Positions 4,468 to 49,664 of a stretch of DNA of 64,000 nt are shown one piece after another; the stretch's first letter is position 1; every line of letters starts with the position of its first letter. The stretch lies in IMG/VR virus record IMGVR_UViG_3300021092_002038, positions 1 to 64,000 of that record. One strand, 5' to 3'. The stretch is from a virus. Below the pieces are notes generated by a model, which saw only the letters and a list, made by a program, of their open reading frames with translations, did not search any database and was not told the origin of the DNA. A program made the translations under genes and the position numbers.

Positions 4468-6079
4468 AATTCAAATCTCCATCATTAAGTAAATCCAAGT
4501 TATTTAATTTTATATTCACCGTTTCACATACTTTTTCTTCTACGGTGTTAGCCACAAATACAATTTTTTGTACAGATTTGCTTTTGGCGCTATCTCGCCA
4601 AACTCTACCAGTGGCTTGTCGCATTTGTACGGCCGAATAAGATGGTGAGATTAAAGAAAGTCTAGGATAATTTCCATTTAAATCGTGTAAAGAAAGGCCT
4701 GCTCCACCTGCCGCGATATTAACTAATATAATTCTTTCTTTATCTGCTTGAAAATCGTCGATATGTTTCTGTCTGTCTTTATCGGAAACAATTCCGTTTA
4801 CAATACATTTGGTGTTTAATCTTTTAGAAATAGCTTCAATGCTTTCAGTAAAATTCATGAATACCACTACACTCATACCATTTTCTAATCCTTCTTCAAT
4901 CATTTCAATAAATAGAGGTACTTTTACTAATTCAATTTTTTGTCTTGCTCTAAGAATTGCCGTTAACTGTGAACCATTATCTTTGCTTTCTTTTTTTATT
5001 TTTTTGCTTAATTTTAACAATTCTCTTTCCATTTCTTCATACAACGCGATTATTTTCTTTCTACTTTCTTCTTCCATATTATAACAATCCGCAATAATTT
5101 GGCTTTCTGGAAAGTTTGGAATTGAATCGCGGGTCAAACGAACTCCCCTATCTACAAAAATATCTTTATGTAATTTAGTTAAGACTTCTTTATTTCCTCG
5201 ATATTCTAAACCAAATCGTCCTTTTACTACGCCGTGTCTATATAACCACGTATAATATTGTTTATTATTATCAAATAATTTTAAACACATTCCCACCGTT
5301 TTTAATTCTAATGGATTGGTTGCATTTGTAGCACTACAAAAAATCATTTTATAACCACTTTTTAATGCAGATATACACGTTTCGCTATTCTTAGTTTTAG
5401 ATCCTTTTAGTTTTTGACTTTCATCCCAAACAATTAATGTGTTTTTGGAAATCTTCCACGTAAATTCATTTACGTGAGTTTTTTTATTTCTTACAAATGA
5501 TGCTATCGGAGACTCATGTTTTCCCAATCTCAAAGATTCGTAATTCACGATTCCTATCAACTTTGAATTCATATTAAAATGATTTTTTATAACTCTTCTC
5601 CAAGATTCCATGACGGCTTTTGGACATACAATTAATATATCCATATCTAGCTCTCTGGCTACTCCACATGCCGTATAAGTTTTACCCACCCCCACATCTG
5701 ACCCATCTATTGCACAGCCCCATTTTTTAATTGCTGCGCACATCTTTCCAACTGCTGTAATTTGCCAAGATCTTAATCCTGTATTTATCTTTACCTCTAC
5801 AGGTTCTAATACGAATTCATTTTGTTTTTCTATAGGTTTTAAATGTTCATATTCTTTAAAAAGATGTTTTTCTGGTTTAGTTTCATATAAATACCACCCC
5901 TCATCTTTCTTAGAAACACCGTAGCCTTTATCTTTAAGTTTAAATGAATTTTGTCGCCAATAATTAAAGAACGGAGATAGATATTCTTTTTCAATTAACC
6001 AATCTCTTTTCCACCAAATACCATATTCAGTCTTATATGAATAAGGCTCTGACCATTTTATGTTTAAATCTAACATCAC
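4457..6079 (-). CDS. SNF2-like superfamily 2 DNA helicase
   Basis: The protein has about 540 residues. Motif I is GSDVGVGKT (about 126-133), motif II is a WDESQ variant of DEAH (about 218-222), and motif III is SATNATNP. The second RecA lobe carries VVVFMNFTESI, AAGGAGLSLHDL and the motif VI sequence QMRQATGRVWR. These are hallmarks of SNF2-type translocases, which use ATP to move along duplex DNA. T4-type phages use related enzymes such as UvsW for fork remodelling and recombination, and a similar role is inferred. The start may be GTG 6079 or ATG 6076; both follow the stop of the upstream gene directly. Confidence 0.85.
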   Translation of the reverse strand: MMLDLNIKWSEPYSYKTEYGIWWKRDWLIEKEYLSPFFNYWRQNSFKLKDKGYGVSKKDEGWYLYETKPEKHLFKEYEHLKPIEKQNEFVLEPVEVKINTGLRSWQITAVGKMCAAIKKWGCAIDGSDVGVGKTYTACGVARELDMDILIVCPKAVMESWRRVIKNHFNMNSKLIGIVNYESLRLGKHESPIASFVRNKKTHVNEFTWKISKNTLIVWDESQKLKGSKTKNSETCISALKSGYKMIFCSATNATNPLELKTVGMCLKLFDNNKQYYTWLYRHGVVKGRFGLEYRGNKEVLTKLHKDIFVDRGVRLTRDSIPNFPESQIIADCYNMEEESRKKIIALYEEMERELLKLSKKIKKESKDNGSQLTAILRARQKIELVKVPLFIEMIEEGLENGMSVVVFMNFTESIEAISKRLNTKCIVNGIVSDKDRQKHIDDFQADKERIILVNIAAGGAGLSLHDLNGNYPRLSLISPSYSAVQMRQATGRVWRDSAKSKSVQKIVFVANTVEEKVCETVNIKLNNLDLLNDGDLNYGK

Positions 6080-6379
6080 TCAGTTACCGTATTCTTTTCT
6101 ATACTTATTATGATTTATCGACTCATGAATATTGGTTCTAAGATATTGTCCAGCTCTTATTACTCCAATATCAAAATGTTCAGAAAGAGAACTAACAAAA
6201 TTAGCGCCTTCCTTATCATCATAACCATATCCTAAATCAATCAAATTTTGCATATATTGTGATCTCGTCAAGGAAAACTTCCTACGAACAGTTCCCTCTA
6301 AATGATTTATAATTTCTGATAAATTGTCAAAAGATATTGGCGTATTGGATATTGTAGTATCTATTATATAAAATTTCAT
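6080..6379 (-). CDS. Hypothetical protein
   Basis: This 99-residue protein starts at ATG 6379 and ends directly before the helicase start, so the two are probably co-transcribed. The central part looks helical (SRSQ-like turn, then LGYGYDDKEGANFV). No family is recognised. Confidence 0.55.
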   Translation of the reverse strand: MKFYIIDTTISNTPISFDNLSEIINHLEGTVRRKFSLTRSQYMQNLIDLGYGYDDKEGANFVSSLSEHFDIGVIRAGQYLRTNIHESINHNKYRKEYGN

Positions 6380-6422: not shown

Positions 6423-7382
6423 TTATATTTTCCAATTCATTTCTTTTAAACATTCTTTTACCGCATCTTTATCTTTTTCATCCAAGACCTTACTTAAATT
6501 TTCAAATAAATCTTCTAGCGTATATTTTTTATCATCGGATAACATTTTGTTTTTATTTTTCATATCTTGAATGGTATCAACAATTTTATCTAATGTCACT
6601 TTGTATTTATCGTAATGTTGTTTATCTACGAAATTAGACATAGTAAAAGATTTGGGTGTTATTGATTTTATTAAAAACAATATACTACTGCCTATAAATT
6701 CAAATATTTTGAATACTGCAGCTGCTATAGGATTTGACATCGCAGCTAGTTTTAAAATAAAAAACATAACTGCAAATATAAGAATTCCAACCAATAAAGA
6801 TGTAATAAATTTTTTAACGCCATAAAATATAGCCCCTAAACCAAACCACTTATCAAGTTCATTTACCTTTTGTGTATTTTCATCATTTTTTTCTGCAATT
6901 TCAGAACTTAACGCTTGATACTCTTTGGATGTTTTATCTAACTGTGATTTAAGTTTACTTCTTTCAGACTGAAGATATTGAATTTCTTTGTCTAGTTTAT
7001 TTAATTCAGCTCTGCCTTTTTCTCGTTCTATTTTTACCGCCGAAATTAAATCATCTACGATTTTTTGAATTCTTTTAAGATCGTTAATTTCAGGATTACC
7101 AGCTATAGATACGACCCGTTCATTCAATTCTTTTGCAACTTGAACTTCTTTAGATGGATCTTTTTCTTGATCTAACGCGTGATGTGTTCCTGCAGCTAAT
7201 ATGCCTATTTGATTCAATTTTTTATCGTTATTAACCGACAACGCATCTTTTTTACTTTGCATTTCGTTTGCTTTATCATTTAATCGGTCGGCGGATTCCG
7301 TAGTTGACCGTTTAAATAAACTTATACAGCCGGTGAAACAAAATACCGTCACCATTAAAAATAATATTAATAATCTTTTCAT
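6423..7382 (-). CDS. Lipoprotein with coiled coil and membrane segments, possible spanin
   Basis: The 319-residue protein begins with a type II signal peptide (MKRLLILFLMVTVFCFTGC; lipobox FTGC with Cys 19). Residues 30-175 are strongly helical and coiled-coil-like. Two hydrophobic segments follow at about 192-213 and 218-240, then a charged helical tail of about 75 residues. A lipid-anchored N-terminus, periplasmic coiled coil and later membrane segments are the layout expected of a one-chain spanin, which joins outer and inner membranes during lysis. Known examples are much shorter and end at the membrane segment, so the assignment is tentative. A Shine-Dalgarno-like aaaggt lies upstream. 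Confidence 0.6.
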   Translation of the reverse strand: MKRLLILFLMVTVFCFTGCISLFKRSTTESADRLNDKANEMQSKKDALSVNNDKKLNQIGILAAGTHHALDQEKDPSKEVQVAKELNERVVSIAGNPEINDLKRIQKIVDDLISAVKIEREKGRAELNKLDKEIQYLQSERSKLKSQLDKTSKEYQALSSEIAEKNDENTQKVNELDKWFGLGAIFYGVKKFITSLLVGILIFAVMFFILKLAAMSNPIAAAVFKIFEFIGSSILFLIKSITPKSFTMSNFVDKQHYDKYKVTLDKIVDTIQDMKNKNKMLSDDKKYTLEDLFENLSKVLDEKDKDAVKECLKEMNWKI

Positions 7383-7438
7383 AAAATTTAACCTTTATAT
7401 TTTTTATAACACTAAAATTAAAAATTTTAACAATCTTT

Positions 7439-7801
7439 CTATTTTTTGGGTTCATAGCTCACTCTAACAGGAGCGTTTCCTTTTGATGACGACCCCTTTT
7501 TTCCGTGTCCAGCCTTTCGTTGCGCAGACTTTTTTCTTCTAACAAAAGACGCACGTCCTTTTTTACCAAGTTTTTTTGCATATTTTTTGCCTAAGCAAGC
7601 ACTATAAGAGCTACCTTTTTTAGCGTCTCCACACTTACCGGTTTTTTCTCCTTTACTGTTGTATCTGTCCCATCCACCGCCTGAAGAACTACCTTTTGAA
7701 CCTTTTCCGAACCACGCTCTCAATCCTCCACTATATTTTTCTTGTACAGAGTCTATTTCCTCTATCTTAGCCAACAGTTTCTCTTCAATAATATTTTCCA
7801 T
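7439..7801 (-). CDS. DUF5872-family small basic protein
   Basis: The protein has 120 residues. After a short acidic N-terminus it shows the DUF5872 pattern: GGLRAWFGKG, a Gly/Ser stretch, GGWDRYNSKGEKTGKCGDA, YSACLGKKYAKKLGKKG and VRRKKSAQRKAGHGKKG. The family occurs in phages and in large eukaryotic viruses. It is very basic, so it could be a virion or DNA-associated protein, but no function is established. It is followed closely by other virion-type genes on the same strand. Confidence 0.75.
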   Translation of the reverse strand: MENIIEEKLLAKIEEIDSVQEKYSGGLRAWFGKGSKGSSSGGGWDRYNSKGEKTGKCGDAKKGSSYSACLGKKYAKKLGKKGRASFVRRKKSAQRKAGHGKKGSSSKGNAPVRVSYEPKK

Positions 7802-7807
7802 ATAGTT

Positions 7808-8155
7808 TTATCCGTTTAATAATCGTTTATCTTTTTTATTTAAATTTGGAACCTCATATATTCCCATTTTATTCTTTAACATCCTCAATGCTGCGGCCGG
7901 TGGTATATTTCCAAAATTAGCCGCCAAAATACCATATTTTTTACAAAATTCTTCCAATTCTATAACGTCAGACTTATTGTGTTCTGTCGGAATTAATTCT
8001 ACATCTAGTTCTTTTATTTCTTTTTTCTTTTTATTTAAAAACGCTGCATAAATAGGATCGTCATTATTAACAGAATATACGTTGTCACACCCAAATTTCG
8101 ATGTTGTAAATTTTGAATTTTCGGTATTATAATTTATAGACTTATATTCATTCAT
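7808..8155 (-). CDS. Hypothetical phage protein
   Basis: This is a 115-residue protein. The second half, with ELEEFCKKYGILAANFG and PAAALRMLKNKMG, matches a pattern I have seen in small proteins of other marine phages near DUF5872 genes; I know no function. It starts 2 bases after the stop of the SleB-type hydrolase gene and ends 6 bases before the DUF5872 gene, so all are likely expressed together. Confidence 0.6.
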   Translation of the reverse strand: MNEYKSINYNTENSKFTTSKFGCDNVYSVNNDDPIYAAFLNKKKKEIKELDVELIPTEHNKSDVIELEEFCKKYGILAANFGNIPPAAALRMLKNKMGIYEVPNLNKKDKRLLNG

Positions 8156-8157
8156 AA

Positions 8158-9993
8158 TTATTTTTTACTTTTTTTATTAGGCGAATTCAACTTTAAAAAT
8201 GTATGTAGTCCTATAACCGTAGTTACTTTCTCAGAATCATACCAGCTAGGTAAACTAGATGTTTTTGATTGTTTTTTAGTTAAAGCTACATTTAGAAAAT
8301 GGTCGGCTCCACCGGTGATATCTTTTAATTCTCCACTTCTAGCTTTTGAAACAATCTCCAATGCAAGAGTAAACTTTGAATGCGTTCTTTTAGAATCTAT
8401 AAAATTTTTAACACTCTTTATGTCGGATTTATCTATTGCATTCCACCCACTAAATTGTTGTGGTTTTAGACATTCAGCTCCCACTTGACTAAAATTGCCT
8501 TTAGCACGATTCATCAATACATTCATCACGGCAGTCATTCCCCTTTCCGCGTCCTTTTCTCCACCAGCCTCATCAACTAAAGTTGAAGCTATAACATCTT
8601 CATATGTATATGGGTGTGTTGGCGTCTTTACTGTTTGTGTCTTTGCTGTTTGTGTAATTTTGTCCGGTTCGACTGGTCCGTTCGCAGACACTTCAGGAGA
8701 ACCAACTAATGATCCTGCTACTGCGGCCAGACCTAATATTTTATTGAAACCTTCATCTAGTTTTCTTCCTTGTGGACCAAAGTGATCAAGGTGGTGATAC
8801 ACATCATCTAGATATTCACCAGCTAAATTTAACTTAGCTTTTACCCAGTCTTCTAATTGAGTGTTTGGTTTTAACATACTTTCTAGTTCTTTTGCGTCAT
8901 TATTTAATTGTTTTAATGCTCCTATAGCCATACTACTATTTTGTTCTTTTAATAGTTCACATATAGCTTCTTTATAATATTCTTTAACAGATTTACTTGA
9001 TGTTTCCCCACCAGCTTGTCTTTTTCTACGAGCCGCACAATGTGCTTTTTGACTAAATCCTTTTGGGTTACTACAATTTATACTCTTTTTATACTTATTT
9101 GACCACTTTTCTTGTATATTGGTCTTATCCTTTTCTTCATTATAAAACTTAAGATAATCTCTTACAGTAGCTACATAATCACACGCATGATTCAATTTAG
9201 CCTTTACCCAGTCTTCTAAATTATCATTGACCGTAAACATTGACTGTAATTTTTCACTATAATCTATGATTTTTGTAATATCACTCTGAGCCATCTCGGC
9301 GTTTTCCGAAGTCAATTTATTCGCATGAGGGTTTTCATGATTGACAGGATGTTCTAGGTCGCCCAACCCAGTTGATTGACTATCTAGCCATTGTTTGTGT
9401 GTTAATTCCTTCATAGATAATCTTCTTAATTGTTTTGCATATGCAGGTGGAAGCACAGGTGCAAGTAAATGGGGTGTTAAATCAATTTTTGAATTAGTAG
9501 TTGGTGTTGTTATCCGATCATATGGTTTATAATCTTTTTGATTAGAAGGAAACTCAAAGAGAGTATTATCATAAGATAATCCATTCTGTTTCATAAATTT
9601 ATCTAATAATCTCCGATTGTTATCTACAGTGGATTTAGAGTTCCAAAAAGATATAAACGAATTTGGTGAATGTTTCCACAGCCGGCCACTAAAAATAAAT
9701 TCATCTCGAGCCGTGTTATTTTTTATTAAATCTGGCTTTATTAAATGAATTAAATTTGCTAAACTTTCATGATCAAGCGCAATTTTAATATACTCTCGAT
9801 ATTTTACTTTTACCGGCTCTGAAATGTCGACGTCTCCTATTTTTAAGAAAAAATCAGCGCCAGAATTAGCGGTTTGTGCGATATATGATTTTCCAGCAGG
9901 AGTTTTGAATGCAAAAAAAGTTACTCCTCGTTGCCACTCAATCGTCTCATCAGGCAAAATTAATCTATCTGGAGATTCATTTAACATATTCAC
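8158..9993 (-). CDS. Virion-associated protein with C-terminal SleB-type wall hydrolase
   Basis: The protein has about 611 residues. The C-terminal part (about 455-605) matches cell-wall hydrolase SleB: DVIASTLVDEAGGE with the putative catalytic Glu, then MTAVMNVLMNRAKG, QQFSGWN and ADHFLN. This domain cleaves peptidoglycan glycan strands. Upstream are two related units beginning LEDWVKAKLN (about 260 and 382), a CSNPKGFSQKAHCAARRK segment known from other phages, and a GLGDLEHPVN motif shared with the next gene. The size and added domains suggest a wall-penetration enzyme carried in the particle rather than a simple endolysin. The start is GTG 9993, overlapping the upstream stop as GTGA, or ATG 9987. 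Confidence 0.75.
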   Translation of the reverse strand: MNMLNESPDRLILPDETIEWQRGVTFFAFKTPAGKSYIAQTANSGADFFLKIGDVDISEPVKVKYREYIKIALDHESLANLIHLIKPDLIKNNTARDEFIFSGRLWKHSPNSFISFWNSKSTVDNNRRLLDKFMKQNGLSYDNTLFEFPSNQKDYKPYDRITTPTTNSKIDLTPHLLAPVLPPAYAKQLRRLSMKELTHKQWLDSQSTGLGDLEHPVNHENPHANKLTSENAEMAQSDITKIIDYSEKLQSMFTVNDNLEDWVKAKLNHACDYVATVRDYLKFYNEEKDKTNIQEKWSNKYKKSINCSNPKGFSQKAHCAARRKRQAGGETSSKSVKEYYKEAICELLKEQNSSMAIGALKQLNNDAKELESMLKPNTQLEDWVKAKLNLAGEYLDDVYHHLDHFGPQGRKLDEGFNKILGLAAVAGSLVGSPEVSANGPVEPDKITQTAKTQTVKTPTHPYTYEDVIASTLVDEAGGEKDAERGMTAVMNVLMNRAKGNFSQVGAECLKPQQFSGWNAIDKSDIKSVKNFIDSKRTHSKFTLALEIVSKARSGELKDITGGADHFLNVALTKKQSKTSSLPSWYDSEKVTTVIGLHTFLKLNSPNKKSKK

Positions 9994-10754
9994 ATTCTCC
10001 AGCCTCCACCTTTTGATTTATACCACTTGGCGGCCCATCCGTTGGCATAAGCTGAGGGATAGACGTCAAATTTAGATCTAGCGGCAGATTTAGCTCTGGC
10101 CCAAAGCGCAGGATTAGTTGGCTTTGGTTTCTTAGACTTTTTCTTAGATTTCTTTTCATTTAAATTACAATCACATCCTTTTGTATTATCAGAACTGTGA
10201 TCTTTTTTTATTATCGGTTCACTTCTACGACCCAAAACTTCTCCATCAGATGTATCTCCAATGGTTCCGATTGCGTTTTTTATTATATTGTTTGAGTTTC
10301 CTATTCTAGGTATATCATTTATAGGATGATCGGCGTCTCCCAGTCCTGAATTTGTTGATGGAATAAATTCTTTTGCTAGTCCTGCCTTTACCAATTTAGT
10401 ATAATATTTAGGATCTTTTGCCAAATGATCTAAGGCTATTTCGGTAGCCACGTTTATATCGTTAGTATGTTCCATCTCAACTTGAACACCTGTAGATAAT
10501 TCCGAGGTATCTACATCCTCAGTAGCTGTGGTATCGCCACTGCCACCTTTTAATTTATTATTTTGTTCAGATGGTTTGTTTTCAAATTCACTAAAAAAAT
10601 CTTTATATTTCATAGATTCATCCTTTAATTTTTCAAAAGTTTTTCCGGTATCATATCCATAATCAATCATCCATCGTCTACCTTTCATAGCAGGATGTCC
10701 AATTATCGGGTCATTTAATTGTTCTTTACCTAAAGTTTTATAATTATTTGCCAT
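9990..10754 (-). CDS. DUF5661-containing virion-type protein
   Basis: The protein has 254 residues. The centre carries the DUF5661 signature (GVQVEMEHTNDINVATEIAL, then DHLAKDPKYYTKL). It is followed by GLGDADHPIN, the same short motif as in the downstream hydrolase gene, and a C-terminal basic module NPALWARAKSAARSKF with YPSAYANGWAAKWYK. That C-terminal module is widespread in phages and giant viruses. The function is unknown; the grouping with a wall hydrolase and DUF5872 suggests a particle component. It overlaps both neighbouring genes by a few bases. Confidence 0.7.
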   Translation of the reverse strand: MANNYKTLGKEQLNDPIIGHPAMKGRRWMIDYGYDTGKTFEKLKDESMKYKDFFSEFENKPSEQNNKLKGGSGDTTATEDVDTSELSTGVQVEMEHTNDINVATEIALDHLAKDPKYYTKLVKAGLAKEFIPSTNSGLGDADHPINDIPRIGNSNNIIKNAIGTIGDTSDGEVLGRRSEPIIKKDHSSDNTKGCDCNLNEKKSKKKSKKPKPTNPALWARAKSAARSKFDVYPSAYANGWAAKWYKSKGGGWRM

Positions 10755-11616
10755 AATTTCTTTTAGACTTTATTTTTTCTTCAGTTTGTCTATACGCATC
10801 AACAACTCTTTTATCCACGTTTCTGTTTTTCAATTTGGAATTTTTTTCAATTATACCGTCAAAAATTTGTTTAAAAATTTGTTTTTTACCAATACCCGCC
10901 TCTTTAGATTCCTCGATGGCTGGTGTTGCGTTGTCAATTTTTGACTTTACTTCTTCTGAGGAAAGTTTTTCTCCTGTAAATGTGTCACCTTCTTCCGATT
11001 TGAACCAATAAATTCCATCAGGAGACACATTCTGCAAAACCATTTTGCGGCCATCGACATACAGAATGGATTCAACTACATGACCGGGAACTGAAACTTT
11101 AATTATTTCGTCGAAATCAACAAATGAACCGAAGTATTTACGTTTGCCGTTACCCAACGAGCGGGTCTTTGAAATATAAACGTTATTCGATTTTCCTTTG
11201 GTTTCATTGATGACAACCCTTGACGATTCTTTCATAAAATTATCGTCTATATTTAACATATTTAATTTTGAATAATACGTAGGGTCTTTTTTTAGATTAT
11301 CAATCACCATTTGTTTTGCGTATGATTTATTTTTATAAAACATACGTTTTAATTCATAATTTAATCCGCACAAAATTTCATCAGGAGTAACTTTGTCTTT
11401 AATGAAATCTATATCCTTTTGATCGGGTCCGGTAACTCGTGTAGAAGTATAAGAATCTATTTTATTTTGACCGGCAGGATAAAAATTAATTGGATGTTGA
11501 GAGACATCCGGCGAGGTATAAGTAGAAACTCCAGGATTTACAATTCCTGAAGTGCCGTATGATATTCCCGTGGCCATTCTATCCCCAAGATCGGTTTCGT
11601 TTACACTTTGATTCAT
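10744..11616 (-). CDS. Hypothetical virion-type protein, DUF5661-like centre
   Basis: The protein has 290 residues. Residues 75-125 (VTPDEILCGLNYELKRMF, then KKDPTYYSKLNML) resemble the DUF5661 segment of the next gene, suggesting related folds. The middle (about 140-210) looks like a beta-rich domain and the C-terminus is helical and basic. The start at ATG 11616 is preceded by a TATAAATA box 26 bases upstream, which fits a late virion gene. The precise function is unknown. Confidence 0.55.
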   Translation of the reverse strand: MNQSVNETDLGDRMATGISYGTSGIVNPGVSTYTSPDVSQHPINFYPAGQNKIDSYTSTRVTGPDQKDIDFIKDKVTPDEILCGLNYELKRMFYKNKSYAKQMVIDNLKKDPTYYSKLNMLNIDDNFMKESSRVVINETKGKSNNVYISKTRSLGNGKRKYFGSFVDFDEIIKVSVPGHVVESILYVDGRKMVLQNVSPDGIYWFKSEEGDTFTGEKLSSEEVKSKIDNATPAIEESKEAGIGKKQIFKQIFDGIIEKNSKLKNRNVDKRVVDAYRQTEEKIKSKRNYGK

Positions 11617-11641
11617 AATGCATAAATATCAAATAAAAATG

Positions 11642-11649
11642 TATTTATA
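11642..11649 (-). promoter_or_regulatory. Candidate late promoter TATAAATA
   Basis: The minus strand reads TATAAATA, identical to the T4 late promoter core, 26 bases upstream of the first gene of a virion-type block and inside a 150-base non-coding gap. The AT-rich background makes chance matches common, so support comes mainly from position. Confidence 0.35.
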
Positions 11650-11767
11650 CAAACTAAAAACTATCTTTTACAGTGACAACTTAATTATTTTATCTATAAC
11701 CATTTTCTAGCAGTAAAAATTACAAGAAAACCAACAAAACTATAACTTGGGTTGATCTAGCTATGTC

Positions 11768-12307
11768 TCATCTATATTCAGGTAATAATAGTCGCCATCT
11801 TCTTAAATCTATAGGTTTTATTCCTGAATCTATCTTTTTTATCATTTCCAATGCTTCGTCTATGGTATTATAGATATAATGCGGTGGAAGTAATCCCATT
11901 AACCAAAGAGGAGTCTGTTTTTTGTTATTTACTACCAAAAAAATCGGTTTTTTTTGTTGATCGGCTATCACTATTTCATGCATTGTTCCAAAAGTGGGTT
12001 TTTGTATTTCAAGATTGACAATAATATAATCCGATAAGTCTATAAGTCTTAAATCTTTTTGAACTACTCCCCTCATATAATTATGAACATATTCGTAGTC
12101 TTCATTTTCTCTTGCCAATTTTAATTTTTTTCTATCTTCATCCGCCTCGTTATTCTGAAACATAAACATTGTATCTAGTGGAGACAATACTTTAATTTCT
12201 AGTTTTTCTAATTCATTAGCCACATAACTTCTCCAATTTGTTGCGTCATTGGTATACTCCATGTTTCCGGCCAAATACACCTTTGTATTTTTTAATATGT
12301 TTTTCAT
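11768..12307 (-). CDS. Nucleoside 2-deoxyribosyltransferase-like protein
   Basis: I chose ATG 12307 because it overlaps the upstream clamp-loader stop as ATGA; this gives 179 residues. The protein begins with KVYLAGNMEY, continues with a DLRLIDLSDYIIVNLE strand-loop and has TFGTMHEIVIADQQKKPIF. These are typical of the deoxyribosyltransferase-like Rossmann fold, in which the Glu of the GTxxE segment is catalytic. Enzymes of this family swap bases on deoxyribose; relatives cleave nucleotides. In a replication operon it may serve nucleotide salvage or production of an unusual base. The substrate cannot be told from the sequence. Confidence 0.65.
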   Translation of the reverse strand: MKNILKNTKVYLAGNMEYTNDATNWRSYVANELEKLEIKVLSPLDTMFMFQNNEADEDRKKLKLARENEDYEYVHNYMRGVVQKDLRLIDLSDYIIVNLEIQKPTFGTMHEIVIADQQKKPIFLVVNNKKQTPLWLMGLLPPHYIYNTIDEALEMIKKIDSGIKPIDLRRWRLLLPEYR

Positions 12308-17080: not shown

Positions 17081-17842
17081 TCAACGAATTTTTATCCCAA
17101 TAACTTTTTTATCGATCAAAACAAACATTGTTTCGTTTGAAAGTGAAACCAAATCATTGCAACTCTGTGTAATAGTTTTAACGTCATCCGGTTGTATTGG
17201 TTTAATAACAGCCGTTGGTCTGCCGTTATTCATGGTATCCATTCCTTTTAGAGAAAGACTATAATATGTAGATACGTGTGCAAAATTTCCTTCTGCGATT
17301 TTTAATTCTTTACTCTCAATAACCTTATGAATTGTAGCAGATCCTTCAAGAACCGCGATCACCGTCGTTTTATCTTGAACTACTATACGAAACTTTCCGA
17401 CTTTTAAAGTCATCGATACTCTAGGAGTTTGCAACATAAATATTCCGTTTGTGGATGTATTAACCACATCTAATACTCCTGACATTAAACTGAATACATA
17501 ATTTTGGTTATCGCACACGAGTATCGAAGGTACTGTCGTATTATTTTTAATGGTTGATGAAAAAGTATGCAATTTTAGCTGTGAATTTTCATTCAAAGAA
17601 ACTAATGTTCGATCTGAAAATTGAAATTTAAATGTGGAATTGGTAGTTGTTTCAAAATCAATCTGACAATTTTCGTGTTTATACGTATTTCCTAAAATTA
17701 TATTGTTGGTTATAATTTTACCATCGTCTTGAAAAATCAGATTGTTTATCGTACCTACTTGTTTTAAAGGATAGTAAGACACGGTGTCTTGTGAAAAAGC
17801 TGACACAGTTAGTAATAAAAGAGTATAAATTATGTTTTTCAT
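17081..17842 (-). CDS. Secreted FecR-domain-like protein
   Basis: From ATG 17842 the protein is 253 residues; an in-frame TTG lies 6 bases upstream. The N-terminus MKNIIYTLLLLTVSAFSQDT is a clear type I signal peptide, so the protein is exported. The mature part is beta-rich and follows the FecR pattern: LSxR-like FSDRTLVSLNENSQLKL, LMSGVLDVV, FMLQTPRVSMTLKVGKFRIV and TVIAVLEGSATIH. In bacteria this domain sits in periplasmic sensors and surface proteins. No anti-sigma region or membrane helix follows, so signalling is doubtful. In a phage such a protein might change the host envelope. It is divergent from the nuclease gene 51 bases away. Confidence 0.6.
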   Translation of the reverse strand: MKNIIYTLLLLTVSAFSQDTVSYYPLKQVGTINNLIFQDDGKIITNNIILGNTYKHENCQIDFETTTNSTFKFQFSDRTLVSLNENSQLKLHTFSSTIKNNTTVPSILVCDNQNYVFSLMSGVLDVVNTSTNGIFMLQTPRVSMTLKVGKFRIVVQDKTTVIAVLEGSATIHKVIESKELKIAEGNFAHVSTYYSLSLKGMDTMNNGRPTAVIKPIQPDDVKTITQSCNDLVSLSNETMFVLIDKKVIGIKIR

Positions 17843-17893
17843 AATCAAATATAAGTAGTAGACATCTAAGATAAAAGATGATATTCATAAAGT

Positions 17894-18772: not shown

Positions 18773-19050
18773 TATGTTGCTATTAAATTGCCGTCATTAT
18801 AAAATTTCAAAAAAGAAACAGAGTGTTTTATTTTTATAGTATATGCATATGAACTTATATATGTTACAGCTATGTATTCATACATTTGTTTACATTCTTT
18901 TAGCTTTATTTCCTTTTCTCGGGGTTGTGCACAGTTGCATAAAGCAATATATTGATCTACAGTTTTTACAAAATTATCAAATGGAGAATTATTTTGTAAT
19001 CCTGATTCTTTTATTAAATTATACAATTGTGTAAAATTGTTTATGTTCAC
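18769..19050 (-). CDS. Hypothetical protein
   Basis: This 93-residue protein starts at GTG 19050, overlapping the stop of the upstream membrane protein gene as GTGA. It contains three cysteines (CNCAQ, KECKQ) but no recognisable family. Its 3' end overlaps the convergent nuclease gene by 4 bases. The function is unknown. Confidence 0.5.
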   Translation of the reverse strand: MNINNFTQLYNLIKESGLQNNSPFDNFVKTVDQYIALCNCAQPREKEIKLKECKQMYEYIAVTYISSYAYTIKIKHSVSFLKFYNDGNLIATY

Positions 19051-19388
19051 TGTATATTAATTAATTTTGATAATAAATAGTAACTCGTCAAAATAATTAA
19101 AACGTGAAAACAATATATTCCTAAACTAAAAGTATAAAACAGAATCGGCAAACACAACCATACTGACAAGCATATTGGGCAAGTAATTAGTCGTGTAAAA
19201 AAATTATTGTGATATTTTCTTAAATATAAATGATAGTTTAATTCAAAATCTTGAAGTTTTTCTTTTTCAAATTTATCTACCTTAAATAATTTAGACAAAC
19301 GAAATAATTTTACATATTCCAAAAATGCATCAGTTTTGAACCACACTATTAATAATAGCACAAAAATAAATATATAATTGTATTTCAT
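19047..19388 (-). CDS. Small membrane protein with CPxC motif
   Basis: The protein has 113 residues with an N-terminal hydrophobic segment (about 4-18) and a hydrophobic C-terminal half (about 65-108). Between them lies ITCPICLSVW, which resembles the CPFCxGxW motif of small DUF1360-type membrane proteins. It is therefore probably an inner-membrane protein of unknown role, translationally coupled to the next gene. It diverges from the rmlA-like gene 55 bases away. Confidence 0.5.
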   Translation of the reverse strand: MKYNYIFIFVLLLIVWFKTDAFLEYVKLFRLSKLFKVDKFEKEKLQDFELNYHLYLRKYHNNFFTRLITCPICLSVWLCLPILFYTFSLGIYCFHVLIILTSYYLLSKLINIQ

Positions 19389-19443: not shown

Positions 19444-20286
19444 ATGAAAGGAATTATTTTATCTGGCGGTAATGGTAGTAGATTATATCCGCTTACGACA
19501 GCAATAAACAAACAGTTGCTTCCCGTATATGATAAACCAATGATATATTATCCTTTAAGCACCATGATTGGGTGCAGCATAAGAGAATATTGCATTATAA
19601 GCACACCTGAATATTTGCCTTTGTATAAAAAAATGTTTGGCGCCGGACAACATTTGGGTTTGGATATTTGTTATAAAGTTCAAGAATACCCTCGTGGAAT
19701 TTCAGAATCATTCATAATCGCGGAAGATTTTATTGGGAATAACGATGTGGGTCTAATACTCGGAGACAATATTTTTCACGGTCCAATAAAAATTAAATCT
19801 GATTTAAACGATGCGATTATATTCGCGTATCAAGTAAACAATCCACGTGATTATGGCGTAGTCGAATTTGATGAAACTAATAAAGTTATTTCTATTGAAG
19901 AAAAACCTATAAATCCAAAAAGTAATTTCGTTGTTCCAGGTTTATATTTTTATAACAATGATGTGGTAAAATATTCTAAAAAATTGAAACCTTCTTCAAG
20001 AGGAGAATTAGAAATTACCGATCTAAACCGAATTTATTTAAAACAGAATAGGTTGTCTGTTATTAAATTTTCTAGAGGCACCGTGTGGTTGGATGCCGGC
20101 ACTCCAAGTTCTTTATATCAAAGCGGAGCCTACGTTCAGACTATACAAGAAAGACAAGGTATAAAAATTGGATGTGTTGAAGAAGAATGTTATAGAAAAA
20201 AATTTATAAATAAAAAACAATTATCTAATATAGTTGATAAGATGCCTAAGAGCGAGTACAAAGATTATTTAAACAAAATATTATGA
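19444..20286 (+). CDS. rmlA: Glucose-1-phosphate thymidylyltransferase (RmlA)
   Basis: The protein has 280 residues, near the usual 290. The N-terminal signature is MKGIILSGGNGSRLYPLT followed by NKQLLPVYDKPMIYYPLS. Further on are GLILGDNIFHG, EEKPINPKS and the conserved WLDAGTPSSLYQSG. The enzyme joins dTTP and glucose-1-phosphate to dTDP-glucose, the first step to dTDP-deoxysugars such as rhamnose. Its stop overlaps the start of the next gene as ATGA-like coupling, and glycosyltransferases follow on the other strand. Phages use such sugars for surface glycans or to decorate DNA or capsid; which applies here is unknown. Confidence 0.92.
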   Translation: MKGIILSGGNGSRLYPLTTAINKQLLPVYDKPMIYYPLSTMIGCSIREYCIISTPEYLPLYKKMFGAGQHLGLDICYKVQEYPRGISESFIIAEDFIGNNDVGLILGDNIFHGPIKIKSDLNDAIIFAYQVNNPRDYGVVEFDETNKVISIEEKPINPKSNFVVPGLYFYNNDVVKYSKKLKPSSRGELEITDLNRIYLKQNRLSVIKFSRGTVWLDAGTPSSLYQSGAYVQTIQERQGIKIGCVEEECYRKKFINKKQLSNIVDKMPKSEYKDYLNKIL

Positions 20287-21149
20287 TTATATTATTCGGA
20301 TCAAGTGGATATATTGGAAGTGAATTTAAAAGACAATTAGAACAATTAAATTTGGATTTTTACTGTTGGCCTAATACAGCAAACACTACTATTTTTCAAT
20401 TAAACGAATGGTATAAAAATTTTGGATGTAAAAAAATTGATATTGTAATTAACAGTGCGGCTTATATAGGAAAACCTAATGTTGAAGTGTGCGAATACAA
20501 TAAAGAATTGACTATATTAGGAAATATTGTGTGGCCTAATACTATTACTACTTGGTGTAAGATGAATAATATTCCATTGGGACATATTTCCTCTGGTTGT
20601 ATTTATTCTGGTTGTAAATCTGATGGAGAATCATTTACTGAAGAAGATGTGCCTAATTTAACATTTATACAAAATAATTGCAGTTTTTATGGTGGCACAA
20701 AAGCATTATCAGAAAAAATAGTTAAAGAATGGGAAAACTCTTACATTTGGAGAATCAGATTGCCGTTTGATGAATGTGATAATAATAGAAACTATCTAAC
20801 TAAATTAATAAACTACGATAAATTGTTGATAGCCGAAAACTCTTTATCAAATAGAAAAGAATTAGTTACTGCGTGTATAAAGACATTTACTAAAAAAGTT
20901 CCGTTTGGAATTTATAATGTAGTGAACGATGGTTATATTACTACTGAAAAAGTAGTAGAAAAAATTAAAAATACTATTAAAAAAGATAAAATATTTAATT
21001 TGATAACTGAAAAAGAGTTTTATAATACTATAAGTTCTCTTCCACGATCAAACTGTATTATAAGTAATAATAAATTAAAATCGGTGGGTATTAATATGAT
21101 GGATGTATACGACTCAATTGATTACTGTCTATTGAATTGGAAATATTAA
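20283..21149 (+). CDS. dTDP-4-keto-sugar reductase, NRS/ER-like short-chain dehydrogenase
   Basis: The protein has 288 residues. It has an N-terminal NAD(P) motif (LFGSSGYIGSEF), the strand IDIVINSAAYIG, and a catalytic YxxxK in SFYGGTKALSE preceded by SSGCIYSG and FTEEDVPNLTF. The FTEED-PN-SFY-TKA arrangement is that of the plant and giant-virus NRS/ER enzymes, which turn 4-keto-6-deoxy-glucose nucleotides into rhamnose; bacterial RmlD is a cousin. It directly follows rmlA and overlaps it by 4 bases. A 4,6-dehydratase is not visible nearby, so the host may supply that step. Confidence 0.75.
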   Translation: MIILFGSSGYIGSEFKRQLEQLNLDFYCWPNTANTTIFQLNEWYKNFGCKKIDIVINSAAYIGKPNVEVCEYNKELTILGNIVWPNTITTWCKMNNIPLGHISSGCIYSGCKSDGESFTEEDVPNLTFIQNNCSFYGGTKALSEKIVKEWENSYIWRIRLPFDECDNNRNYLTKLINYDKLLIAENSLSNRKELVTACIKTFTKKVPFGIYNVVNDGYITTEKVVEKIKNTIKKDKIFNLITEKEFYNTISSLPRSNCIISNNKLKSVGINMMDVYDSIDYCLLNWKY

Positions 21150-35174: not shown

Positions 35175-37289
35175 TTAATTTTCTTTTTTTAAAAACATAA
35201 TATTCAACGTTTTAGCGATTTCTAATAAATTTTTTACATTTATAAATGATGCGTTTTTACCATACATCATTCTAAATTGTTCCGTAATTTCGTTGGTATC
35301 CACATCAGAGATACCTATATTTCCATTATTTAATGTGTTAATATGTATAAAATAAGATAGAACTTCGTATCCTGATCGAATTACTTTTTTAATTTGATTT
35401 CTAGTGTGTTCTGCCGCTTTACGCCCTTGATACATATGAGTTAAATTATTAATTTCAACGGACAAATATGGAAGTCCGTCAGATAAATTTATAAAATAAT
35501 AATCTTCGTCTGAATTTTTTGCGGGTAAGTTTTTTACTATTGGTTCAAAACATAACCCTTCAGGAGTTGTATTAGCCGGATAAATGTGACTAAAATCATT
35601 TTTTATTTTATTAAAAGAGTCTTTAGTTGAGTCGTATGCAATTACAACGTATGGCGTATATGTATTGGTACTAACTTTTACAGAGGTTCTAAAACTTACT
35701 ACTACATTTACGTTATTAATCATTGAACATGCCTTACAAATAGCCACTACGGTTGTAAGTGTATTTCTCCACTTTTCTCCGCCCATCGAACTGCTAGCGT
35801 CTACACTAATATGAATGTTAGCGTTTTTATATTTATCCATTTGATTTGTAAAAAATACGGTTGGAGAATCAAAGGCAAGATCCGATAAAGTTCGTCTATC
35901 AATTTTTCCCGAAGACTTTCTCATGAATTTTGTTGTGTTTACAGAATTTCTAATTTGAAGTCGTTTCCCCAAAAGCTGTCCTAGACTGATTCCATTTCTA
36001 ATACAGTTTTCATTTTCTCGATGAGTTAATACGTTATTACCATCGTTCAATGGAAATTTTTCATCCATCAATAATTCTCGTGTGAGATTTTTAACAAAAA
36101 CGCAATCAACGTTTGTTCCGAAAAAATCTTCTCCCACTTTTATTAAGGTCATTCCGCTATTTTCTATATTAGATATGGTGTTATTATCTAATTTATTCAA
36201 ACTCTTTTTAAGGAACTGATGATCCATAAATTTTTTTTGATTTTTAAAACTGTTTTTTACTTTTTCTATCAGAGTTTTTGTCAGTTTTTTAACGTTGCCG
36301 TTTTGTTTTTTCTCAGATTTAGATTCATCAGTTTTATTATCTTGGTCTGTATCATCGTTTGTATCGTCGTTTTTTACATTTTCTTCCTTGTTGTCTGAAT
36401 CTGCGAGTTCTACATCTTTATTACTATTATCTGAATTTTTATCTTTTAAATTTGTGGATGGTTCGTCGTTATCCGCCTGTTCAGATTTATTTAAATGATT
36501 GTCACATTTAGATGTTGTTTTTGATCCTATTTCCGATTTTGTTTCTGTAGTATTAACATCTGATATATTTTTCAATATCAATTTAACACATTCGACGGCA
36601 GTTAAAAATCTATCGCTCGGAGTTTTCAAACGACTAATGTTTTTGTAATCTATCATTTTATAAATTTTTTCAAGATCTGGTAATGCTGCCAAATCGGTAT
36701 TTTCGTTTGTAAAATTAAAAATTCTGAACGTATATGATTCCACGTCTAAACTTCTGTACAATTCGCTTTTTAACGCAACATTATTTATTTTACTGTTAAA
36801 ATATTTGTTATATAATTCTATGTAGTATCCTTGATAGCCTACGGATGTAGTATATACATACCAATCAATATATCTGTCTTCGACATAATTTATCATATCT
36901 TTGGTTAATTCCCACACCGATTCTTTGCTCATGTTAATTTTTTCGGATAATTCGTATATTTCTCTAGGAATTCTTTGCCATAAGGTCTTTAAAATGTTCA
37001 TATCCGACAAAACTATATGAGCGGATTCGTGTAACGCCAATCCAACAGTCACGTCGAAATCTTTTTTGCAACTTATCTTTGATGTAATGTAAATTGTTTC
37101 ACCATCGGTTGAACTGTTTCCCGATGTCTTAAATTTTACAGGTACATTTTTATTGGTTAATATTTTTACGAAATTTGAAATAGCCAGTCTATATGCGGCT
37201 AATTGTATCAAATTTAAATCTAATTTAGAATAATTTTCTTCTTCAACCGATTCCTCATTCAACCAAAAATCTGAATAAGTATCATTCAT
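35175..37289 (-). CDS. VWA-domain protein with HExxH metallopeptidase motif
   Basis: The protein has 704 residues. Near the N-terminus VGLALHESAHIVLSD (HESAH at 87-91) and a later Glu in NYVEDRYIDWY (about 137) form a gluzincin-type zinc site. An acidic, low-complexity linker (about 260-330) follows. The C-terminal region is a von Willebrand A domain with the MIDAS motif HISVDASSSMGG and the later YFINLSDGLPY. The upstream gene encodes a MoxR-type AAA+ ATPase; such pairs act as chaperone-like machines that remodel target proteins, sometimes with proteolysis. The target in this phage is unknown. Confidence 0.75.
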   Translation of the reverse strand: MNDTYSDFWLNEESVEEENYSKLDLNLIQLAAYRLAISNFVKILTNKNVPVKFKTSGNSSTDGETIYITSKISCKKDFDVTVGLALHESAHIVLSDMNILKTLWQRIPREIYELSEKINMSKESVWELTKDMINYVEDRYIDWYVYTTSVGYQGYYIELYNKYFNSKINNVALKSELYRSLDVESYTFRIFNFTNENTDLAALPDLEKIYKMIDYKNISRLKTPSDRFLTAVECVKLILKNISDVNTTETKSEIGSKTTSKCDNHLNKSEQADNDEPSTNLKDKNSDNSNKDVELADSDNKEENVKNDDTNDDTDQDNKTDESKSEKKQNGNVKKLTKTLIEKVKNSFKNQKKFMDHQFLKKSLNKLDNNTISNIENSGMTLIKVGEDFFGTNVDCVFVKNLTRELLMDEKFPLNDGNNVLTHRENENCIRNGISLGQLLGKRLQIRNSVNTTKFMRKSSGKIDRRTLSDLAFDSPTVFFTNQMDKYKNANIHISVDASSSMGGEKWRNTLTTVVAICKACSMINNVNVVVSFRTSVKVSTNTYTPYVVIAYDSTKDSFNKIKNDFSHIYPANTTPEGLCFEPIVKNLPAKNSDEDYYFINLSDGLPYLSVEINNLTHMYQGRKAAEHTRNQIKKVIRSGYEVLSYFIHINTLNNGNIGISDVDTNEITEQFRMMYGKNASFINVKNLLEIAKTLNIMFLKKEN

Positions 37290-38346: not shown

Positions 38347-39333
38347 TTACTTACTTTTAATTTTATGTGCGGGTAGATTTAATTCTTTGCCTTTTCCACC
38401 TTTTAAAACGTGTTTCTTTTCGACTTTACTCTGTTTAGGATATGTGTATTTAACTTTCTCGCCTTCACTTGGGTGTTCCGATTGTTTATTTACCTTGTTT
38501 ACTTCTTTCATAGGTTGATTAGGTAAATCTTCTTCATTTACTACTTGATTTTCTTTATAGTCTTTTTGTTCGTTTTTCTTATCATTCAAAGATTTAATAG
38601 GATTTTGTTTGGTTTCAGGAAGTTCCGATCCTTTTACCTGATCATTTGTTTGTTCTGCGGATTTATTATAAGCTTTTTGAACGTAGTTGCCTTTTTCGTT
38701 TAATTTTTCTTTTACGAACTTTTTTAATTCATCTAAACTGTCATTCATATGTCTGGTTCTGTCGGTCCCATCTTTCGTATGAATTATATCATATGAATCC
38801 ATATAATTTGGTCGAATGTGAAAATAATGCGGGAAACATCCAGAAATTTCGTATCCGCCGAGTTTACTTGGTTTCACACAATAATCTTTGCTATATTCTT
38901 TAACTACCTTATCTAAAGCGACCATGGATTCCTCAATGGATTTCTGAGTTTCCAATTTAATTTCTTCAATTGATTCTTTAATCAATGATGTTAGAATTTT
39001 TCTTTTAGACTCTTCTAATTTAGAAAGTTCCTTTTCCGCATCCAATTCGTGTTTTTTTACATATCCATCGGATCCCAGATACACATAACCTTTATCTTTA
39101 GCGACTTGATCAGCAAATGTCAAAATTTCTTCTTGAACGGATTCCGCTTGAGCGACATCTTTGATATGAGAATAAATTATATTAGATATATCATCATGAT
39201 CCAAATATGTTTCGTTTTCATTAAATAGTTTTTCGACCTCGGATTTTATAGTATCTACCATAGATTCAAGATGTGCTGGATTCATCTCGTTCAAAACTTC
39301 TTGTATCAACGACTTTAACTCAGAAATATTCAT
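38347..39333 (-). CDS. Hypothetical protein with N-terminal LKSLIQEVL tag
   Basis: The protein has 328 residues. The N-terminus MNISELKSLIQEVLNEM is nearly the same as that of the gene at 49236-49664 and forms a short amphipathic helix. Residues 20-160 are long charged helices. A compact region follows with KLGGYEISGCFPHYFHIRPN and HTKDGTDRTRHMNDS, then a disordered Lys/Glu/Asn-rich tail. Such N-terminal tags in phage proteins may direct packaging into the capsid, as in T4 internal proteins. No enzymatic motif is seen. Confidence 0.55.
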   Translation of the reverse strand: MNISELKSLIQEVLNEMNPAHLESMVDTIKSEVEKLFNENETYLDHDDISNIIYSHIKDVAQAESVQEEILTFADQVAKDKGYVYLGSDGYVKKHELDAEKELSKLEESKRKILTSLIKESIEEIKLETQKSIEESMVALDKVVKEYSKDYCVKPSKLGGYEISGCFPHYFHIRPNYMDSYDIIHTKDGTDRTRHMNDSLDELKKFVKEKLNEKGNYVQKAYNKSAEQTNDQVKGSELPETKQNPIKSLNDKKNEQKDYKENQVVNEEDLPNQPMKEVNKVNKQSEHPSEGEKVKYTYPKQSKVEKKHVLKGGKGKELNLPAHKIKSK

Positions 39334-39345
39334 ATATTATAAATA

Positions 39346-40119
39346 TCATATAAAAAAAGAATCGTTAATATTATTTTCGACATCAAAAGTCTGTATTTCG
39401 TCGGAATAAGTAGAAAGTTTTGGATATGGTAAAATTGGATGTTTTAGAGATTTTTTTAATTTTTTGTTTAAAATCTTATTGGATATAAATTTTATATATC
39501 TGTGTTTAGAACTTTCTTTCTTTCTCCAAAAAGTTTTACCTATTCTTTTTTTGAGATGTTCAATATTATGACTGCCCCACTTGGAAAACACCGTTCGACT
39601 GTGAATCCATTTATAATTTGGAGGACCATCTAAACTTATGCTATAATTAGGCATTAAACACAAACTATTGTTGCCTTGATATAAAAAGCCTGTAGCTTGA
39701 TATATGATTCCTGAGTGATTTACTTCTGAATCCGAATAACTTACCACCGATTTTATATGTGGAAAATCTTTATTTAATTGTTTAAAAGATTCTGCAATAC
39801 AATAACTTTCTATATTTTTACCATATCCGTCATGAATAAACAGTCTTACCAATTCAAATACTTCGTCTTTTGATAATAAATCGGATAATGAACTCGACAC
39901 ACTTCTTCCTACAGGTTGACTATAAACCACGCAACCAATTAATTTATCTACTGTGTCGTTAAAATATAAAAACTTCTCTTCAGTTTTATAAAAAATACCG
40001 TATGCTATCCTGCATAACGTCCATTTATGAGTATAATGGTTTTTTATAATAATATCTTTTGCTACTTTGCTGCTTATTGGTTTTAAATAAACTTTTTCAA
40101 CATCACAATATTTTTCCAT
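39346..40119 (-). CDS. Mom-like GNAT-fold protein
   Basis: The protein has 257 residues. Recognisable blocks are IIIKNHYTHKWTLCRIAYGI (about 23-42), DKLIGCVVYSQPVGR (58-72), FELVRLFIHDGYGKNIESYC (88-107), IKSVVSYSDSEVNHSGIIYQ (122-141) and ATGFLYQGNN. This is the pattern of Mom-type adenine-modification proteins, GNAT-fold enzymes that in phage Mu alter adenines to resist host restriction. The basic C-terminal region may contact DNA. Modification of this phage's DNA is therefore possible but not shown. Confidence 0.65.
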   Translation of the reverse strand: MEKYCDVEKVYLKPISSKVAKDIIIKNHYTHKWTLCRIAYGIFYKTEEKFLYFNDTVDKLIGCVVYSQPVGRSVSSSLSDLLSKDEVFELVRLFIHDGYGKNIESYCIAESFKQLNKDFPHIKSVVSYSDSEVNHSGIIYQATGFLYQGNNSLCLMPNYSISLDGPPNYKWIHSRTVFSKWGSHNIEHLKKRIGKTFWRKKESSKHRYIKFISNKILNKKLKKSLKHPILPYPKLSTYSDEIQTFDVENNINDSFFI

Positions 40120-49235: not shown

Positions 49236-49664
49236 TTATTTGGTTAATTGATTCACTATTTCTTTTTTAAAATCAATATATTTGTTGTTAATTTCTGGAT
49301 ATTTTTCAGCTATACTATTCCACTCAACATCTAATAACTTTATATTTTTATTATAGTTATCTAAATCTATGTTACCGATTGCGTGTACAACCGCATCTAC
49401 AATTTTTTGTGTTTCGCTTATACCGGCTTTTATATCTATTCTTTTTTTTCTATCAATATAATTTGTTATTACATGTAACACTTTAGACTTCATTGCAAAA
49501 TCTTTATCATCATACGGATTTATTTTTGTGGCTGGAAAAGTTCCATTTTTATCATCTTGCGAGTTTGTTGAATCGAATGGGTCACGGGGTTCATTTTCCA
49601 ATCCTTGTAAATTCATTTCGTATAAAACTTCTTGTATCAACGATTTTAGTTCTTTTTTTTTCAT
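49236..49664 (-). CDS. Hypothetical protein with N-terminal LKSLIQEVL tag
   Basis: The protein has 142 residues. The N-terminus MKKKELKSLIQEVLYEMN shares LKSLIQEVLxEM with the gene at 38347-39333. The rest (PRDPFDSTNSQDDKNGTF, then helical segments) has no known motif. I infer a common targeting or interaction signal, possibly for packaging into the capsid. It lies upstream of the homing endonuclease gene and downstream of the gene at 49683. Confidence 0.5.
   Translation of the reverse strand: MKKKELKSLIQEVLYEMNLQGLENEPRDPFDSTNSQDDKNGTFPATKINPYDDKDFAMKSKVLHVITNYIDRKKRIDIKAGISETQKIVDAVVHAIGNIDLDNYNKNIKLLDVEWNSIAEKYPEINNKYIDFKKEIVNQLTK

Follow-up and report, generated by a model that had tools for sequence, protein, structure and literature searches.

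Results

Gene organization at the locus

The window analyzed here is a stretch of DNA that covers bases 1 to 64,000 of a virus record 80,467 bases long. On its minus strand, an open reading frame delimited by its ATG start and by family alignments (6423..7382) encodes a 319-residue predicted lipoprotein. This gene stands at the end of a late-type operon, an arrangement found throughout the window's subgroup of the family. The operon head encodes a 290-residue protein of cluster 4 (10744..11616, minus), where clusters are those of our neighborhood clustering. Twelve nucleotides before its start, an octamer scan detected a late-type element (11621..11628, minus) that matches TATTTATA at seven of eight positions. 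Further along lies an endolysin candidate of 611 residues (8158..9993, minus) with a C-terminal Hydrolase_2 domain (8197-8550; Pfam E=6.2e-10) behind a segment of weak hydrophobicity (residues 419-433). The endolysin candidate is followed by a 115-residue protein of cluster 14 (7808..8155, minus) and, directly upstream of the lipoprotein gene, by a 120-residue basic protein with a relative in L018/L019 (7439..7801, minus). The downstream neighbor encodes 99 residues and belongs to cluster 8 (6080..6379, minus).

The closest named-phage relative of the window's polymerase is that of Microcystis phage Mel-JY01 (44.5% identity); a search of viral contigs with the polymerase protein alone returned eight stretches, none of which held a relative. 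The record also has sheath, tube, clamp-loader, helicase and RecA-like genes in common with Mel-JY01, and on these grounds we take it to be a T4-like myovirus. The records of eight relatives likewise carry a T4-like polymerase, sheath or other core genes. Since the window record is a fragment, a gene missing from it means little.

Several other genes of these records deserve mention. An RmlA-like and RmlD-like sugar gene pair (19444-21149, plus) sits inside the mostly minus-strand window record. Of 586 RmlA relatives, the best 80, at 52-57% identity, have titles that point mostly to Bacteroidota but also to other phyla; because the matches span several phyla at this level, we claim no host. 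The window further encodes a secreted FecR-domain protein (17081-17848, minus; E=1e-8) whose cluster occurs in 8/9 records and which is odd for a phage, a Mom-like DNA modification protein (39346-40119, minus; phrog_1384 E=3.7e-45), and a membrane-anchored PAS-domain protein behind an octamer (40156-40725, minus; PAS_3 E=7e-9) that has relatives in G008, G013 and G014 and a weak holin-family match (E=0.009). Judged by eye, the proteins at 38347-39333 and 49236-49664 (minus) of the window, at 4145-4471 of L002 and at 8881-9705 of L016 share a type of short N-terminal leader in which L, I and E abound and which ends in an LxE-like motif. In this they resemble T4 internal proteins, whose leaders direct them to the capsid. 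L002 also has, within its tail genes, three large proteins that are like one another (4505-6154, 6897-8456 and 10048-11982); they contain repeated KYG-type motifs and, judged by eye, are probably homing endonucleases. Two phage contigs have unusual genes adjoining the lipoprotein gene: a pilin-like DUF1559 protein with an N-methylation motif in L021 (11010-11723) and, by eye, PAS histidine-kinase-like, response-regulator-like and coiled-coil membrane proteins in L026 (1667-3839).

Domain organization of the lipoprotein

The protein begins with a signal peptide and the lipobox FTGC (7326..7382, minus), the codon of Cys19 lying at 7326-7328. Phe at position -3 is unusual, and a strict lipobox pattern missed the window protein. 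The motif is not a chance resemblance, since the cysteine is invariant in the 16 sequences of alignment A2 and present in two members added later; the lipobox recognized in the original prediction is thus borne out by a lipobox cysteine in 18/18 family members. Behind it, residues 29-93 (7104..7298, minus) form a helical part distal to the membrane segment, with conserved G65, L70, A83, N87 and R89 and pLDDT values mostly in the 70s.

Residues 99-178 (6849..7088, minus) constitute a helical rod, as indicated by the structure model, by sequence periodicity and by a match to DUF4164. A hydrophobic face recurs here with a period of 3.5-3.6 over a long run, a regularity reached by 2.3% of shuffles. 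A coiled coil would show this regularity, but so would any long amphipathic helix, and the two are not separated by it. The DUF4164 match covers the rod only (residues 102-163, E=2.7e-6, 28.2 bits against a cut-off of 27.2); it is the sole Pfam family above cut-off in the window protein and is matched by 3/16 members, and we derive no function from it. Of the roughly 145 residues of coiled coil originally proposed, about 145 are indeed predicted to be helical, but the long periodic face is confined to residues 99-178 and a coiled coil is not distinguished.

The rod leads into a Gly/aromatic-rich stretch, WFGLGAIFYGVKKF (residues 179-192; 6807..6848, minus), which adjoins the membrane segment and shows the highest conservation in the protein in the family alignments. 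The membrane segment follows at residues 193-212 (6747..6806, minus), with KD values of 1.84-2.84 across 18 members. An invariant N-P and an amphipathic helix occupy residues 217-241 (6660..6734, minus), a possible second crossing as judged from alignment, model and moment. Hydrophobic 19-mer peaks fall at residues 4-22, 192-210 (KD 2.87) and 220-238 (KD 1.95), in line with the two later hydrophobic segments of the original prediction. The first of these, 193-212, is strong, but the second is amphipathic (mean moment 0.39 and H 0.55, against 0.13 and 0.76 for the first), so that a membrane crossing by it is doubtful.

Residues 242-319 (6426..6659, minus) form a C-terminal domain, conserved in 18 members and predicted to consist of three helices. 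The soluble tail that had seemed unexpected for a one-chain spanin is therefore a real and conserved part of the protein.

Structure prediction and fold searches

AlphaFold2, run with 16 sequences, yielded an all-helical model in which one helix extends over residues 99-216, breaks at 217 and is succeeded by a second helix to residue 241. Residues 29-93 were modeled as separate helices at lower confidence. The full model has a mean pLDDT of 76.5, with block values of 91-94 at residues 121-160, and a pTM of 0.27, which means that the arrangement of the protein's parts is not predicted. When modeled alone, the last 78 residues formed three helices with a pTM of 0.66 and a pLDDT of 82.9.

Neither structure nor profile searches recognized a known fold for the full model or the C-terminal domain. 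Foldseek returned no match at E<=0.001 for the full model against PDB and BFVD, nor for the C-terminal domain alone. With VIA-align 2 the best Z of the full model was 6.9 (residues 28-137, rmsd 4.5, 103 aligned), within the level common for such models, and that of the C-terminal domain alone was 4.4 (rmsd 4.6, 59 aligned). Profile comparison with solved sequences gave a best E of 0.29 for the family and 0.016 for the C-terminal domain (PS1, 5tgw).

Among phage protein families, a match to phrog_3268, labeled 'spanin' (E=3.3e-4; 2/16 members), was set aside as unspecific because 8/14 cellular controls also match that family. Four of 16 members match phrog_2682, which has no function assigned, the match being N-terminal in L028 and L020. 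The Rz-like spanin family phrog_13 was found in 0/13 records at E<=1.

A phage lipoprotein family with a rod of fixed length

The lipoprotein has relatives at 25 further IMG/VR loci, 23 of them from an alignment search and two found subsequently. A DNA pattern of the motif around WFGLGAIFYG led to nine IMG/VR stretches, six of which encode relatives; by a frame test, L009, L012 and L013 do not. L007, L008, L010, L011, L014 and L015 are the same contigs as retained loci, and most records of the family are incomplete fragments. In the 16-sequence alignment, identity to the window protein ranges from 31 to 54%. A profile search found a single copy of the gene in each of ten virus records, and it is the only lipoprotein cluster common to all nine virus records compared, which were chosen for carrying the family.

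For the analysis of full-length proteins we used a set of 18 members, leaving out the near copies L019, L022, L027, L030 and L032 and the incomplete L035, L037 and L038. The distance from the lipid to the membrane segment is 167-179 residues in all 18, and none has an insertion or deletion within residues 74-241. No member (0/18) has a cysteine between lipobox and membrane segment, and Asp at position +2 after the lipobox cysteine is likewise found in 0/18.

Searches elsewhere returned no further relatives. Tblastn of named phages at E<=1 found none; of two phage hits to a C-terminal query (E 0.03 and 10), the first, MT837249, is a 478-residue sensor-kinase-like frame without a family-profile match. 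BLAST found no member in Mel-JY01, where a profile hit (E=0.007) proved to be a 161-residue frame matching profile positions 92-169 only. A single-protein search of viral contigs gave 15 pattern stretches without a relative, and plasmids gave four hits at E 1 to 7, none significant. Among genome contigs, 39 stretches retrieved with alignment A1 held no relative, although a diverged cellular relative could be missed because this search used one eight-residue pattern. In the literature searched, we recognized no paper describing these proteins. By these comparisons, the lipoproteins are an undescribed phage family.

Wall hydrolases upstream of the lipoprotein gene

The family divides by gene neighborhood, and the first subgroup comprises the window, L016, L017, L018/L019, L024, L025, L031, L033 and L039. 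Its gene order is largely kept where contigs reach: clamp loader, clusters 4 and 7, an enzyme slot, cluster 14 or 40 (both in the window), the lipoprotein, cluster 8, a UvsW-like helicase (cluster 15) and clusters 16-18. The original prediction, a possible large one-chain spanin, had suggested looking nearby for an endolysin. A wall-hydrolase domain lies at most two genes upstream of the lipoprotein at six distinct first-subgroup loci (window, L016, L017, L018/L019, L025 and L039/G014), above the Pfam cut-off at all but L017, which is assigned by identity; L024, L031 and L033 have none there, and none was seen in the second subgroup.

The slot enzyme is Hydrolase_2 in the window and L025 (E=1e-9) and a phage lysozyme in L016 (4.7e-10), L018 (1.3e-13) and also in G004 and G014, the records of L019 and L039, respectively. 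The 201-residue slot protein of L017 gave no Hydrolase_2 hit and is 60% identical over its length to the L025 protein. Over the 270 residues before their catalytic domains, the L018 lysozyme protein (7203-9068) and the window's Hydrolase_2 protein are 60% identical; different catalytic domains behind so similar a leader point to an exchange of the enzyme at one locus. In L024, L031 and L033 the slot holds an HExxH protein with weak metallopeptidase matches, which is not a recognized wall hydrolase. In 6/6 hydrolases examined, the catalytic domain comes after a Gly/Ala-rich segment of weak hydrophobicity (15-mer KD 1.21-1.69), which, as weak evidence, would suit an exported or SAR-type enzyme. 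The hydrolase leaders of L018 and the window, and also those of L016, L017, L025 and L039, combine an [LIV]xE-like motif with this Gly/Ala segment.

We searched eleven records for five wall-hydrolase families. The slot enzymes are the sole matches in G000, G004, G008 and G014; G002, G005, G007, G010 and G011 gave no match, the enzyme of G002 having been found by identity only. M23 and Amidase_2 matched in none of the eleven. Mel-JY01 has a GH19 match, and the same GH19 search was positive in 0/14 controls.

The second subgroup has different surroundings, and no hydrolase was seen beside its lipoprotein gene; in G013, a GH24 lysozyme gene lies at 210 kb and the lipoprotein gene at 11.6 kb. The lipoprotein gene is often alone on its strand and lies near the major capsid gene, which in L020 and L034 is 51-53% identical to that of Mel-JY01. 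Also nearby are relatives of two Mel-JY01 genes that adjoin its sheath gene, and a Mom-like gene. This Mom-like relative (Pfam Mom) often adjoins the lipoprotein gene itself.

A late-type octamer precedes the gene or its operon

In 10/10 records examined, the octamer TATTTATA, whose reverse complement we take to be the core of the T4 late promoter, is enriched in the sequence ahead of genes. It occurs 125 times within 120 bases before 1,466 frames of at least 100 residues, 83 times at 11-30 bases from the start. It stands before sheath genes in 5/6 cases (59-66 bases), tube genes in 6/6 (32-57 bases), tape measure genes in 4/8 (12-23 bases) and the gene between capsid and sheath in 2/2 (12 bases). 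None precedes polymerase (0/8), clamp (0/7), clamp loader (0/8), RecA (0/8) or helicase (0/8). Its absence before terminase, portal, protease, capsid and a baseplate-region gene (0/2 each) speaks against a simple late rule. The octamer lies close before many starts, for example at 2842, 3415, 39345, 40741, 52006 and 62280 of the window (minus), and since it is often 12 bases from the ATG, a promoter at this position would leave almost no leader.

Within the family, exact TATTTATA stands 11-14 nt upstream of the operon head gene in 8/9 first-subgroup loci, six as annotated and two (L025, L039) after shifting the start, while the window has one mismatch. In L024, L031 and L033 it also lies directly before the lipoprotein gene. 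In the second subgroup it precedes the lipoprotein gene in 7/8 distinct loci, beginning 11-15 bases from the start, and the eighth, L026, has a seven-of-eight match. This count drops the copies L022, L032, L027, L030 and L035 and the incomplete L037 and L038; L030 and L035 lacked the octamer when the scan began at an upstream start, and L029 was scanned from its ATG. L040 has no TATTTATA octamer. The background is 0.011 per 60 bases, and because the loci are related, the counts are not independent. With a late-type octamer before the gene or the operon head, the lipoprotein appears to be expressed late.

Search for separate spanins and a holin

A clear spanin pair elsewhere in the genome had been named as evidence against a one-chain spanin. 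We scanned all frames for a lipoprotein-like frame beside a type II membrane frame, and none was found in the 80 kb record of the window, which has no type II candidate near the lipoprotein gene. The same scan returned no lipoprotein-like frame with a type II neighbor in G000, G002, G004, G011 or Mel-JY01. Candidates appeared in 5/8 related records (G005, G007, G008, G013, G014), none of which convinced us when judged by eye: in G014 and in one case in G013 the frames overlap, and in G005 and a further case in G013 a multi-pass protein is involved.

Further lipoproteins occur in G002, G007, G008, G013 and G014. The most spanin-like are proline-rich proteins of 40 residues in G008, whose neighbor is itself lipoprotein-like, and of 113 residues in G013, whose neighbor is 47% identical to the G007 neighbor and has a further hydrophobic C-terminal stretch. 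These could be o-spanins with unrecognized partners. In G007 (35195-36267) and G013 (142097-142901), genes for a lipoprotein and a membrane protein stand side by side, the two membrane proteins being of one family.

The original prediction had also suggested looking nearby for a holin; no other membrane protein was listed near the lipoprotein gene in the window. The possible holin is a 113-residue membrane protein with three hydrophobic segments (19047..19388, minus), far from the operon at 11.7 kb from the lipoprotein gene. Its family is present in 7/9 records, with Phage_holin_T matches below cut-off (E=0.002; 2/7 members) and weak DUF1360 matches (7/7, best E 1.4e-4). Exact TATTTATA was found within 120 bases upstream of the gene in 0/7 members.

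Discussion

Comparison with known bridging proteins

The protein has much in common with the u-spanins of the T1 gp11 type. It has an N-terminal lipoylation signal (18/18 family members by sequence), a later membrane segment, no periplasmic cysteine and a proposed role as a single-chain bridge (PMC6139136). Periplasmic cysteines are likewise absent from 58/58 published u-spanins (PMC6139136). Unlike u-spanins, the window protein is 319 residues long and its membrane segment is not C-terminal (193-212 of 319); an amphipathic helix and a conserved domain of 78 residues come after it. A conserved C-terminal domain beyond the membrane segment is not among the spanin features described in the sections consulted (PMC6139136). 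Its periplasmic part is predicted to be all-helical, whereas that of T1 gp11 is predicted to be beta-rich (PMC6139136). Given the C-terminal domain and the predicted helical periplasmic part, the window protein should not be filed under unimolecular spanins.

In other respects it resembles Rz/Rz1 of lambda, a helical bridge of about 170 residues in total with lipid and membrane helix at opposite ends (PMC5295617, PMC6139136). By a published estimate, the 170 residues of Rz plus Rz1 would measure 25.5 nm if helical, approximating the span of the periplasm (PMC5295617). The 167-179-residue distance in our family fits a rod of that size, so far a numerical coincidence. Unlike Rz/Rz1, the window protein is one chain of reversed polarity, with the lipid N-terminal and the membrane helix after the rod, and it has neither bridge cysteines nor a proline-rich part. 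Both anchors thus sit on one chain and not, as in a two-component spanin, on the products of separate adjacent genes. Tetherin (BST2) has a coiled-coil rod with a membrane helix at one end and a lipid anchor at the other. The likeness is one of geometry only, two tetherin chains being hit at non-significant E values of 0.73 and 0.81. Tetherin is an animal protein that tethers membranes, whereas the role proposed here is to disrupt them, and we claim no homology.

Alternative explanations

The presence of a lipid anchor and of a rod long enough to span the periplasm is well supported by the family's sequences, and the lipoprotein probably bridges the two membranes of a diderm host. One finding counts against this topology: a basic pair at residues 190-191 lies on the side that the bridge would place in the periplasm, contrary to the positive-inside rule. 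The lipid, the membrane segment and the amphipathic helix could instead all reside in the inner membrane, with the rod folding back and the protein remodeling the membrane or timing lysis. Such a placement would bring the most conserved stretch and the N-P motif together at one membrane, and it agrees with a long helix that begins only at residue 99, behind the separate helices of 29-93 in the model. Kongari et al. note that an inner-membrane lipoprotein could serve as an i-spanin (PMC6139136). Yet a strictly kept length between lipid and membrane segment would then be needless, and the absence of Asp at +2 also argues against inner-membrane retention, with the proviso that the +2 rule is that of E. 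coli. On balance, we regard this placement as unlikely.

Two further roles would change what the protein is for. A virion assembly or envelope-anchoring function late in infection, with the neighboring hydrolases as virion proteins for entry, would suit the second-subgroup genes near the major capsid gene and the relatives of Mel-JY01 sheath-adjacent genes, as well as the operon proteins of clusters 4 and 7, which have no assigned function. A lipobox and a membrane helix are, however, unusual for virion proteins, and the signal- or SAR-like weakly hydrophobic segment in 6/6 hydrolases does not favor it either, so that we consider this role improbable. Some superinfection-exclusion proteins are phage lipoproteins, and the original prediction had offered superinfection exclusion as an alternative, in which the lipoprotein, or another form of envelope protection, would guard the infected cell against a second phage. 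In keeping with this, Cor-family matches occur in 4/16 members (best E=5.6e-5). The match in L020 (residues 1-77, E=8e-4), however, begins within the signal peptide, and the same is true of the matches of L028 to other lipoprotein-like families. To our knowledge, superinfection-exclusion lipoproteins are small and have neither rod nor membrane helix. The late-type signal speaks against an early protective role and makes this alternative less likely; we consider it improbable.

A possible spanin-like bridge

That the bridge acts at lysis, as a spanin-like one-chain protein, is the single reading we favor, at about even odds. The late-type operon and the cell-wall hydrolase upstream in six subgroup loci are the reasons why a lysis role fits. 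Of the one-chain spanin originally proposed, the lipid anchor, the periplasm-long rod and the late-type, hydrolase-associated setting hold, but the protein departs from the published description of u-spanins.

Under this model, the N-terminal lipid would sit in the outer membrane, and the helical rod, whose length of about 170 residues is seen in the sequences, would be oriented so as to cross the periplasm. Helix 193-212 would lie in the inner membrane, with the amphipathic helix and the three-helix domain in the cytoplasm. The lipoprotein would be made late together with a wall hydrolase, as the late-type signal and the gene neighborhood suggest. Once the wall is degraded, the bridges could move, cluster and pull or fuse both membranes, as has been proposed for spanins, and the invariant Gly/aromatic stretch at the membrane might, speculatively, act in the merger.

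More tentatively still, and with the chances leaning against it, the family could represent a third spanin architecture: a one-chain, class I-like helical-rod fusion lipoprotein of T4-like phages, in which the Gly/aromatic segment drives inner-outer membrane merger and the cytoplasmic three-helix domain holds or gates the protein until the wall is cut. If true, T4-like phages that have no recognizable spanins would owe the disruption of the outer membrane to this architecture. For such phages the lipoprotein is a concrete, testable candidate, with its rod of fixed length, its inner-membrane segment and a swappable wall hydrolase nearby. Should it prove spanin-like, a unimolecular bridge can consist of helices, and a spanin-like protein can carry a domain in the cytoplasm that might serve to control lysis.
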